In this document: in pieces, positions 3,913-8,096 of the stretch
Position numbering within the stretch: the stretch's first letter is position 1
Layout: every line of letters starts with the position of its first letter
Assembly (NCBI GenBank): GCA_016193065.1
Contig: JACPSX010000144.1
Coordinates: 1 to 8,279, forward strand
DNA length: 8,279 nt
Direction of reading: 5' to 3'
Origin: Candidatus Tectimicrobiota bacterium
GTDB taxonomy: Bacteria > JACPSX01
Made by a program: the position numbers and the translations under genes
The notes under the pieces: model-generated
The model's database searches: none
Seen by the model: only the letters and a program-made list of their open reading frames with translations
What the model was told of the DNA's origin: nothing

Positions 3913-3926
3913 CCCCGCCCCGTCGT

Positions 3927-3989
3927 CGTCACCCCGGCGAAAGCCGGGGTCCAGTCCTCTTCTGGATTCCGGCTTGTGCCGGAATGACG
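3927..3989. repeat. 63-base palindromic intergenic repeat with two hairpins (REP-like)
   Basis: The element begins CGTCACCCCGGC and ends GCCGGAATGACG, which are near-perfect inverted copies, and it folds about a 7-base centre flanked by CCAG and CTGG. Each half is also a perfect 8-bp hairpin: ACCCCGGC with a GAAA loop (3931-3950) and ATTCCGGC with a TTGT loop (3966-3985). The halves differ at paired positions, but each hairpin keeps full pairing, so each stem looks maintained in its own right. It resembles the short GTCATTCC...GGAATCCAG palindromes dispersed through many proteobacterial genomes (from memory). It may act as a REP-type element or an RNA processing or attenuation structure between hslU and argB. 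Confidence 0.8.
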
Positions 3990-4019
3990 GAAACGTTTTG
4001 ATTTTGCGACATAGAGGAC

Positions 4020-4028: not shown

Positions 4029-5381
4029 GTGAGCATTAATCTGGCCAAAGCCCATACTCTGATCGAGGCGCTCCCCTACATCCGCACCTTTTCCGGGAAG
4101 ACCATCGTGGTGAAGTACGGCGGGGCCGCCATGGTGAACGAAGACCTCAAGCGCGATTTTGTTCTGGACGTGAGCCTGCTCCGCTACGTAGGAGTAAACC
4201 CCGTCATCGTCCACGGCGGCGGGCCCCAAATTGGAGAGACGTTGAAGCGGATGGGGAAGGAATCTACCTTTGTCCAGGGGATGCGGGTGACGGACGGGGA
4301 GACCATGGACATCGTGGAGATGGTGCTGGCGGGGAAGGTGAACAAGGAGATTGTCTCCCTGATCAACCAGCACGGCGGCAATGCCGTGGGACTGAGCGGC
4401 AAGGATGGCAACTTAATCCGCGCCTCCAAGCTCAACGTCACCGTCAGCTCGGAGCTCACGGGAATCCCCGAGATCATCGACGTAGGGATGGTCGGCAAAG
4501 TGGAATCCGTGAACCCTCAGATCATCGACGTTCTGGTCAAATCCGGTTTTATCCCCGTGATCTCCCCCGTCGGGGTGGGCGAAACCGGCGAGACGTACAA
4601 CATCAACGCGGACCTGGTGGCTGGAGAGGTGGCCGCGGCCCTCACCGCCGAGAAGCTGATCCTGCTCACGGACGTCCCCGGAATCCAGGACAAGAACCGG
4701 AACCTGATCTCCACCCTCACCCGCGCCGAGATCTCCACCCTCACCGCCGCCCAGGTGATCACCGGGGGAATGCTCCCCAAGGTCAGCGCCGCCCTCAGTG
4801 CCCTGGAGGCGGGAGTGGCCAAGGCACACATTATTGACGGCCGGATCCACCACGCCCTCCTGCTCGTCTATGAACCAAGGGGAACTGATCAACCTGTCGC
4901 AGACGTTCCTGGCCCGCACCTACGCTCCAGCTCCCGTGGTGCTGGTGCGAGGTCAGGGGTGCCGGGTCTGGGATGCAGATGGCAAAGAATACCTCGACTT
5001 CGTAGCGGGCATTGCGGTCCAAGCTCTGGGGCATTGCCATCCGAAGGTGGTGGAGGCGATCCGGGAACAGGCCAGCCGTCTCATGCACGTCTCCAACCTC
5101 TATTACATCGGCCGCGAGATCGAGCTAGCCCGCCTCCTGGTGGAAAATTCCTGCGCGGACCGGGTCTTTTTTTGCAACAGCGGCGCCGAGGCCAACGAGG
5201 CAGCCATCAAGCTGGCCCGCAAGTACTCCCGGGACCACTACGGGACCGATCGTTACGAGATTATCACCATGGCCAACTCCTTCCACGGCCGCACTCTCGC
5301 CACCCTGGCAGCCACGGGGCAGGAGAAGTTCCGCCTGGGCTTCGAGCCTTTACCTGCGGGTTTTTCCCATGTGCCGTTTAA
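4029..5381 (+). CDS. argB: N-acetylglutamate kinase ArgB; C-terminal tail and stop lost, frame runs into argD
   Basis: ArgB phosphorylates N-acetyl-L-glutamate, the second step of arginine synthesis and the usual point of feedback control. Residues 1-279 (to base 4865) are a good ArgB: an N-terminal helix as in arginine-sensitive enzymes ([12 protein letters not shown]), VVKYGGAAM with K29, [36 protein letters not shown] with D195, LLTDVPGI, and GGMLPK with K251. The family then continues HALLLE-IFTD-GIGT-I and stops. Here HALLL is followed by VYEPRGTD and by about 165 residues that are only the wrong-frame reading of argD, ending at 5381. So about 12-14 conserved residues and the stop are missing. 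A TGA at 4871-4873 in another frame, overlapping the argD ATG, is probably the old stop. The lost tail is part of the arginine site in sensitive kinases, so feedback is expected to be lost and activity may be too. The gene is certain, its functional state is not. Confidence 0.85.
4864..4873 (+). other. argB: Probable deletion scar at the argB/argD junction
   Basis: The conserved ArgB sequence ends at CTC 4863-4865, and five bases later the argD ATG (4870) begins. The ATGA at 4870-4873 has the form of a normal 4-base gene overlap, but its TGA is not in the argB frame. No Shine-Dalgarno sequence precedes argD here. A deletion of about 37 bases, removing the end of argB, would explain the missing tail, the missing stop, the frame change and the lost argD ribosome site together. 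The size is inferred from family length. Confidence 0.6.
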
Positions 5382-5929
5382 CGATCTGGCGGCTCTGGAA
5401 AAGGCTCTCACCCCCCGCACCTGCGCGGTCATGCTGGAGCCCATTCAGGCCGAGGGGGGGGTGATTGTGGCGGACCGGGAATACCTCAAGAAAGTCCGGG
5501 AGCTCTGCGACCGGAGAAATCTCCTCCTGATCTTTGATGAGGTCCAGGTGGGGACGGGGCGCACGGGCCACTTGTTCGCCTACGAACATTACGGAGTCGA
5601 GCCCGACATTTTTACTCTAGCCAAGGCCCTCGGGGGCGGTACCGCGATTGGAGCCATGCTGGCCAAAGAGGCTGTGAGCGAATCCTTCGGTCCCGGTACC
5701 CATGCCTCGACCTTCGGCGGGAACCCTCTGGCCTGTGCCGCCGCGATTGCCGTGGTCCGCGAGCTGCTGGAGGGGAACCACCTGTCTCAATGCCGGAAAA
5801 TGGGGGCTTACCTGACGGAGCGCCTGGTCACTTTGCAAAAAAAGCACCCCCCCCCTGGTGGTCAGCGAGAGGGAAGTAGACGAATTCGTGTCTTGCCTCG
5901 ATGAGGTTCTGGGAGAGGTGAGAGCGTGA
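4870..5929 (+). pseudogene. argD: Acetylornithine aminotransferase ArgD, internally deleted and frameshifted
   Basis: ArgD is a PLP-dependent class III aminotransferase that converts N-acetylglutamate semialdehyde to N-acetylornithine. From ATG 4870 the first 327 residues are normal: [46 protein letters not shown] (PLP phosphate region), FDEVQVGTGRTG, PLP lysine K252 in TLAKALGGG, and THASTFGGNPLACAAA. After LQKKHP the zero frame degrades into PPGGQREGSRR and stops at 5904. From 5855 another frame gives LVVSEREVDEF...[11 protein letters not shown], the genuine family C-terminus, stopping at 5929 in a GTGA overlap with argF. About 45-50 residues are missing, including the RGxGLMxGxEL block and the LRFxPP block whose Arg binds the substrate carboxylate in related enzymes. 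One base fewer in the C9 tract (5847-5855) would restore the frame but not the lost block. Probably non-functional if the sequence is correct. Confidence 0.85.
5837..5863 (+). other. argD: A7 and C9 homopolymer runs at the argD lesion
   Basis: Seven A (5837-5843) are followed by GCA and nine C (5847-5855), then TGGTGGTC. In the argD frame the first run reads A AAA AAG, the classical -1 slippery heptamer. The family would have KHP-LVV here and PP-LVV about 45 residues later, so both ends of the missing segment could have ended in CCCCTGGTGGTC-like DNA. Deletion between such short direct repeats would leave exactly one copy, as seen. Homopolymers of this length are also error-prone in sequencing. 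Confidence 0.6.
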
Positions 5930-6873
5930 AACGGGATCTCCTGTCCCTGGCGGATCTGGAGCGCGAAGAAATCCTCCACATCTTCAGCCTGACCCGGCGG
6001 CTCAAAGAGAAAGGTGAAGAAGCCAAGCGCCTCTCCCTGCTGCGGGGCAAGGTCCTGGGCCTTATCTTCCACAAGCCTTCCATGAGGACCCGGGTCTCCT
6101 TCGAAGTGGCCATGGTGCACCTGGGGGGTCACGCCATGCTTTTGGGAAACTCCGAAATCCTCCTGGGCGAAAGGGAATCCGTGGCCGATGTGGCCCGGGT
6201 GCTCTCCGGTTATATGGACGGCCTGGTCATCCGGACCTTCGATCAGGCCCTGGTGGAGGAGGTGGCAAGCTGCACCTCCATCCCCGTCATCAACGGTCTG
6301 ACCGATCTCCTGCACCCTTGCCAGATCCTGGCCGCTCTCTACACGATCCAGGAGCGCCTGGGACGCCTGCAGGGACTTAAGGTGGTTTACGTCGGGGACG
6401 GGAACAACGTGGCCCATTCCTGGCTCCTGGGCGCCGCCAAGATGGGGCTCGATCTGACCATTGCCTGCCCACCCGAGTACCGCCCGAACCCTCAAATCTT
6501 CAGCCGGGCCTTGAACTTGGCCCTGACGACCGGCAGCAAGCTCATGGTCCTCGACAACCCACTGGAAGCGGTGCGGGGTGCGCACATCATCTACACGGAC
6601 GTCTGGGCCAGCATGGGACAGGAGCAGGAGAAAGAGGACAGAGCCAAAGCATTCTCCCCCTATCAGGTGAACGCGGCCCTGCTGAAGGCCGCGGGGGAAC
6701 AGGCTTACGTCATGCACTGCCTGCCGGCACACCGGGGGGAGGAAATCATCTCCGAGGTCATTGACGGACCCCGGTCTCTGGTGTGGGAAGAGGCCGAAAA
6801 CCGTCTCCACGTGCAGAAAGCGATCTTGATCTGGTTGCTGGGGGGAGAAAAGGCAGAAAAGGAGTTCGCATGA
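5926..6873 (+). CDS. argF: Ornithine carbamoyltransferase ArgF
   Basis: ArgF transfers carbamoyl from carbamoyl phosphate to ornithine, giving citrulline in the cytoplasm. The 315-residue product is full length. The carbamoyl phosphate loop is KPSMRTR (50-56), with Met in place of the second residue of the common STRT. HPCQ (130-133) completes that site. [14 protein letters not shown] (153-166) opens the ornithine domain, D225 with SMG (229-231) is the ornithine-binding signature separating it from aspartate carbamoyltransferase, and HCLP (264-267) carries the catalytic Cys loop. The GTG start at 5926 overlaps the argD stop frame as GTGA and has a GGGAGAGG-type ribosome site about 8 bases upstream. 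The gene ends in an ATGA overlap with argG. Acetyl- or succinylornithine transcarbamylase is less likely, because DxxxSMG is intact and argF sits among linear-pathway arg genes. Confidence 0.95.
6857..6869 (+). promoter_or_regulatory. Ribosome binding site that fixes the argG start
   Basis: AAAAGGAG at 6857-6864 lies five bases before ATG 6870. The frame is open upstream to 6783, but those 29 codons are argF shadow, so this site decides the start. Confidence 0.75.
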
Positions 6874-8096
6874 AACAGGGGATAGACAAGATCGTGCTGG
6901 CTTACTCGGGCGGACTGGACACCTCCGTGATTCTGAGCTGGCTGAAGGAAACTTACCGCTGCCCGGTCATCGCCTTCTTTGCGGACCTGGGGCAGGAGGA
7001 CGACCCACGCCAGGTGGAAGAAAAGGCCCTGAAGACCGGAGCCAGCCAGGTCGTCATCGAAGACCTGCGAGACGAATTCGTGCGGGACTACGTGTTCCCC
7101 ATACTGCGGGCCGCTGCCGTCTACGAGGGGAGTTACCTTCTGGGGACCTCCATTGCCCGGCCGCTGATTGCCCGGAAGCAAATTGAAATCGCCCACCGCT
7201 TGGGGGCTCGGGCCGTCGCGCACGGAGCCACGGGCAAGGGGAACGATCAGGTGCGCTTCGAGGTGACCTACCTGGCCCTCGATCCGCACATCTCCATCGT
7301 GGCCCCGTGGCGGGAATGGAACCTGGGCTCCCGCCAGGCCCTGGTCAACTACGCCCGTGAGCACGGCATCCCGATCCCGGTGACCCCGGAGCGCCCCTAT
7401 AGCTGCGACCGCAATCTGCTTCACATCAGCTACGAGGGCGGAATCCTCGAAGATCCCTGGCTCGAGCCCAGCGAAGACATGTACATCATGACCACGACCC
7501 CCGAGAAGGCTCCGGACGAGCCCGAGTACGTGGAAATCGATTTCCTGGGCGGGAACCCGGTGGCGGTCAACGGCCTCAAGCTCCATCCTACGAGCTTGCT
7601 AGCCCTCCTCAATGAAAAGGCGGGGCGGCACGGCATCGGCCGGGTCGATATGGTGGAAAATCGCTTCGTGGGCATGAAGTCCCGAGGCGTCTACGAAACC
7701 CCCGGAGGGACGCTCCTCCATATTGCGCACCGGGCCATCGAGTCCCTCACCCTGGACCGGGAGGTCATGCACCTGCGGGACTCCCTGATCCCCCGCTACT
7801 CGGAACTCGTCTACTACGGTTTCTGGTTTTCCCCGGAGCGGGAGATGCTGCAGGCCGCCATTGATGAGACCCAGAAGCCCGTCGAGGGCACCGTGCGCCT
7901 CAAGCTCTACCGGGGAAGCTGCCGGGTGGTGGGCCGGAAATCCCCGCGCTCGCTCTATCGCCACGACCTGGCCACCTTCGAAGAAGCCATCGGCTACAAC
8001 CCCTCGGATGCTTCGGGGTTCATCCGCCTCAATGCCCTCCGCCTGCAGGTGCGTGCCCTTCTCCAGAAAGAAACAGTCCAGGGCAAACCCGAATGA
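6870..8096 (+). CDS. argG: Argininosuccinate synthase ArgG
   Basis: ArgG condenses citrulline and aspartate with ATP (to AMP and PPi) to give argininosuccinate, the penultimate step of arginine synthesis. The 408-residue product matches the usual 395-410 for the shorter bacterial type. The N-terminal ATP pyrophosphatase P-loop is AYSGGLDTS (11-19), followed by [25 protein letters not shown] (citrulline and aspartate binding), [14 protein letters not shown] (118-131), [24 protein letters not shown], and [11 protein letters not shown]; the C-terminal helix that mediates tetramer formation follows. The ATG at 6870 overlaps the argF stop as ATGA, and its own end overlaps the next gene as ATGA, so translation is likely coupled throughout. 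No damage is seen, in contrast to argB and argD. No argH is found in the window. Confidence 0.97.

Follow-up and report, generated by a model that had tools for sequence, protein, structure and literature searches.

The argD gene in the arginine cluster of this draft genome is interrupted by a loss of sequence and a change of frame, and the question is whether the organism has lost the gene or the assembly has damaged it. The window, i.e., the whole stretch of DNA analysed, corresponded to a complete contig (C31, 8279 bases), one of the 294 that make up a 2.9 Mb draft of 86% completeness. This draft was the sole genome of its phylum in our comparison set, in which close relatives were absent. 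The relevant features of the window were the following:

4029-4865, plus strand: argB, authentic as far as HALLL; conserved tail EIFTDxGIGTxI and stop missing
4863-4872, plus strand: second lesion, the truncated argB joined to the argD start (CTCGTCTATG)
4870-5847, plus strand: zero-frame part of argD, intact, ending in LQKKH (TIGR00707 and homologue alignment)
5847-5855, plus strand: run of nine C, site of the frame change and of the loss of about 46 codons
5848-5904, plus strand: zero frame continued out of frame (PPPGGQREGSRRIRVLPR and a stop that ends at 5904)
5849-5929, plus strand: genuine C terminus of ArgD, read in the shifted frame (homologue alignment; coding-frame HMM over 5846-5918)
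5926-6873, plus strand: argF, intact (NF001986, profile 5-305 of 307; no internal gaps relative to homologues)
6870-8096, plus strand: argG, intact (NF001770, profile 4-398 of 401)

Read from 4870, argD was normal up to LVTLQKKH, immediately followed by nine C at exactly 5847-5855. Past this run the zero frame gave PPPGGQREGSRRIRVLPR and its stop, and the next frame (5849-5929) gave the authentic ArgD end (PPLVVSEREVDEF...EVRA and stop), overlapping the GTG of argF at 5926 as GTGA. This is the arrangement proposed in the initial annotation, which had described a zero frame that collapses after a normal course and a genuine ArgD end in another frame closing on argF. Scored with a profile built from 70 homologues, the tail reached 25.6; 20,000 shuffles gave a mean of -31.5, a standard deviation of 7.8 and a maximum of -0.4, so that a match by chance is excluded. 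Independently of homology, a coding-frame HMM that had been trained on long ORFs from this genome put the frame switch at 5845 and showed that the relic tail keeps coding statistics (5846-5918). No N was present at the junction.

The extent of the loss, put by the initial annotation at 45 to 50 codons with a frame change, agreed with the comparison of homologues: the anchors on either side were separated by 46 residues in 55 of the 70 (range 45-51), a spacing absent from argD here, and the best tblastn pair indicated about 137 missing nt, a net loss that therefore changes the frame. The content of the block (consensus PFVKEVRGLGLLIGMELDIPAAPIVKKCLERGLLINCTGDTVLRFV in the 70 homologues) was also as anticipated, with RGxG in 100% of them and the LRFxPP arginine in 96%. 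The latter is probably the counterpart of the arginine that class III enzymes conserve, Arg413 in OAT and Arg426 in YgjG (PMC4244111). The N-terminal and central PLP-binding region of ArgD was present (TIGR00707, 466 bits, profile 3-313 of 381), and no single open frame contained the C-terminal block that carries RGxG and the LRFxPP arginine.

A second lesion, unremarked in the initial annotation and of the same kind, was found in the adjoining argB. ArgB agreed with its homologues through HALLL (codons 4851-4865) and its kinase core was present (TIGR00761, profile 1-231 of 231), but the last 12 or so codons (EIFTDxGIGTxI) and its own stop codon were missing. The argD start at 4870 comes directly after the truncation (about 4863-4872), and the argB frame continues into argD as far as 5381. 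No comparable loss was detected in trmFO (from the contig edge), xerC, hslV, hslU, argF and argG against their own profiles, nor in argF and argG aligned to homologues. In the interval between hslU and argB (3925-3990) we noted a GC-rich inverted repeat pair (CACCCCGGCGAAAGCCGGGGT ... ATTCCGGCTTGTGCCGGAAT), similar to dispersed REP-like elements.

The frequency of such lesions was estimated in 81 contig stretches including the window (806 kb in all, 649 kb coding), by counting same-strand frame switches whose upstream frame continues open beyond the switch for over 45 nt. The draft presented 45 unexplained frame changes in 649 kb of coding sequence (69/Mb), some of which may be ordinary gene boundaries, the profile check having covered part of the 45. 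A single-contig genome used as control had 6 in 1,016 kb (6/Mb; ratio 11.7, p = 4e-13). A control of other, mostly draft, loci had 7 in 401 kb (17/Mb; ratio 4.0, p = 8e-5), although this set is biased, its loci having been selected on the basis of argD, and of the 7 switches several resemble ordinary gene ends. At individual switches, profile alignments revealed the loss of about 8 codons in IlvB, the acetolactate synthase (profile 350 to 359), 25 in ClpB (286 to 312), 12 in a UbiD-like decarboxylase (154 to 167), 14 in a ParA-like ATPase (AAA_31, 94 to 109) and about 44 in an LPG synthase (LPG_synthase_TM, 100 to 145). At the NuoL/NuoM junction, NuoL ended at profile position 604 of 630 and NuoM began at 24. 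A tblastn screen of 127 kb, in which the query proteins came from the homologue loci and from one other genome, yielded two sense-strand events, argD and a DegT-like aminotransferase gene lacking 67 nt, together with two antisense artefacts. No breaks were found in the large essential genes probed (rpoB, alaS, dnaE and the genes for ValRS and LeuRS), where about one would be expected in so little sequence.

Three further observations were made in the sampled contigs. A molybdopterin oxidoreductase gene (L142:4012) switches frame in a run of seven Gs, which may be a one-base homopolymer error. A gene on the minus strand at L115:984-3672 that matches CARF (Card1-like) and, weakly, Card1 endonuclease shows two apparent frame changes. 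Finally, copies of a dispersed repeat (about 250-400 bases; 74-87% alike from one contig to another) occur at L135:5588-5988, L154:1322-1709, L193:8109-8496, L176:29-311, L128:4893-5142 and L175:6525-6815, two of them at a contig end.

The assembly also contains gaps that are visible as such. The sampled contigs had 11 N runs of 4-60 bases each, and an N run coincided with 5 of the 45 lesions. In Cmk, 4 Ns stand in place of 12 codons (36 nt; profile 93 to 106), and in NuoH 56 Ns replace about 18 codons; the break between contigs C263 and C112 runs through rpoC and costs it about 10 codons or more. The hidden lesions, the N gaps and the rpoC contig break fall in one size class, from tens to about 150 nt, with the 137 nt of argD at the large end of the measured sizes. 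Lesions like that of argD thus occur genome-wide in this draft, beside visible small gaps of equal size class.

The C run at the junction was considered separately. Nine-C runs occur 16 times in the genome, and only in the window does the coding frame change within the run; at one further site, on C204, the switch lies some 40 bases off. With 1 of 16 sites affected, C runs in themselves were rejected as the cause of the frame breaks. The initial annotation had suggested that the ancestral ends read HP-LVV and PP-LVV and that the deletion took place between direct repeats of CCCCTGGTGGTC type. Neither proposal was supported: after the K-K-[HY] anchor most homologues read P-F-V-K rather than P-L-V-V, and recombination between HP-LVV and PP-LVV in register predicts CAC CCC CTG, i.e., five Cs in frame, instead of the nine out of frame that were seen. 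With C count, register and homologue sequences in disagreement and like lesions draft-wide, a biological deletion between such repeats is unsupported. At most, the two ends may have shared a C run, which would suit a false overlap equally well.

We therefore favour an assembly artefact over a real mutation because lesions of like kind recur throughout the draft, and we consider it very likely that in argD an unassembled gap was closed silently. Both flanks of the lesion would then be correct sequence from one organism, the intervening 137 nt or so would have been left unassembled, probably through a drop in coverage, and the two ends would have been fused where a short overlap in the C run was mistaken for a true one, leaving neither Ns nor a contig break. 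The argB/argD junction would have the same cause. Three observations weigh against this reading: the argD junction carries no N, its gap is among the larger ones measured, and the large essential genes named above are unbroken, although their total length would predict about one break at most. The GC content was higher at lesions than at random sites (0.616 versus 0.597, p = 0.025), which would fit coverage drops, if weakly. In a published study (PMC8848313), gap-closing tools are described as often filling gaps with untrue sequence; our literature search on the false-overlap mechanism specifically found no direct paper.

The alternative is that argD truly lost about 137 bp when short C-rich repeats slipped or recombined. 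The result would be a dead gene with a net frame change, and arginine would be scavenged or the step taken over by another class III aminotransferase. We judge this unlikely. The C run at the junction is what a microhomology-mediated deletion would leave, and the search for a second class III aminotransferase, suggested in the initial annotation, was successful: C177 encodes an intact, full-length enzyme of 451 aa whose best match is NF004426, 'acetyl ornithine aminotransferase family protein' (650 bits, cut-off 552). From this match the enzyme may be a candidate substitute for ArgD, its acetylornithine activity being putative; bioA, on C109, is cut by the contig end. Yet such a deletion sits poorly with the similar lesion next to it in argB, with some 69 such lesions per Mb of coding sequence across the draft, other central genes included, and with intact argF and argG and a relic tail that retains its coding statistics; nor do nine Cs out of frame match the register of the proposed repeat.

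Numerous lesions in many genes could also mean that all of them are real. In one form this reading holds that the lineage, the only one from its phylum in the genomes compared, is in widespread decay by small deletions, that argB and argD are lost and that the second class III aminotransferase replaces ArgD; we regard this as highly improbable. Genome-wide decay, in which a lineage, e.g., a recent symbiont, sheds genes by many real small deletions, is likewise highly improbable: lone premature stops, also expected from decay, were rare (7 without a following start in our sample versus 1 in the control), the lesion sizes coincide with those of the visible N gaps and the contig break, and rpoB, alaS, dnaE and argF/argG are intact. 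Least probable of all are amplification chimeras that became part of the consensus, e.g., after whole-genome amplification of a small number of cells. Loss of sequence at N-free joins fits template switching in amplification as well, but amplification chimeras are mostly inversions, and near-identical, recent inverted copies were not found in the sampled contigs.

Real lesions would make this an unusual example of gene decay, from a phylum that is otherwise unsampled. If they are assembly artefacts, as we favour, the argD and argB of the organism are probably intact and the contig says nothing about its arginine pathway. Frame breaks number roughly one for each 14 kb of coding sequence, a density suggestive of faulty assembly, so that broken genes in this draft should not be taken as evidence of pseudogenes or auxotrophy, and argD should not be called a pseudogene without the reads.

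Compared with known systems, the gene resembles ArgD (TIGR00707) in its position between argB and argF and in keeping profile positions 3-313 and the last 26 or so residues, and differs in the loss of about 46 residues, RGxG and the LRFxPP arginine among them. It shares with deletions between short direct repeats (replication slippage) a short homopolymer run at the junction, whereas the repeat predicts five Cs in frame where nine are seen out of frame, and the lesions extend across the genome. Apart from the overlap step in the C run, which we infer here, it resembles the false joins and mis-sized gaps of fragmented short-read assemblies, the likeness lying in sequence lost at a join in conserved genes and in the presence of short N runs and contig breaks.
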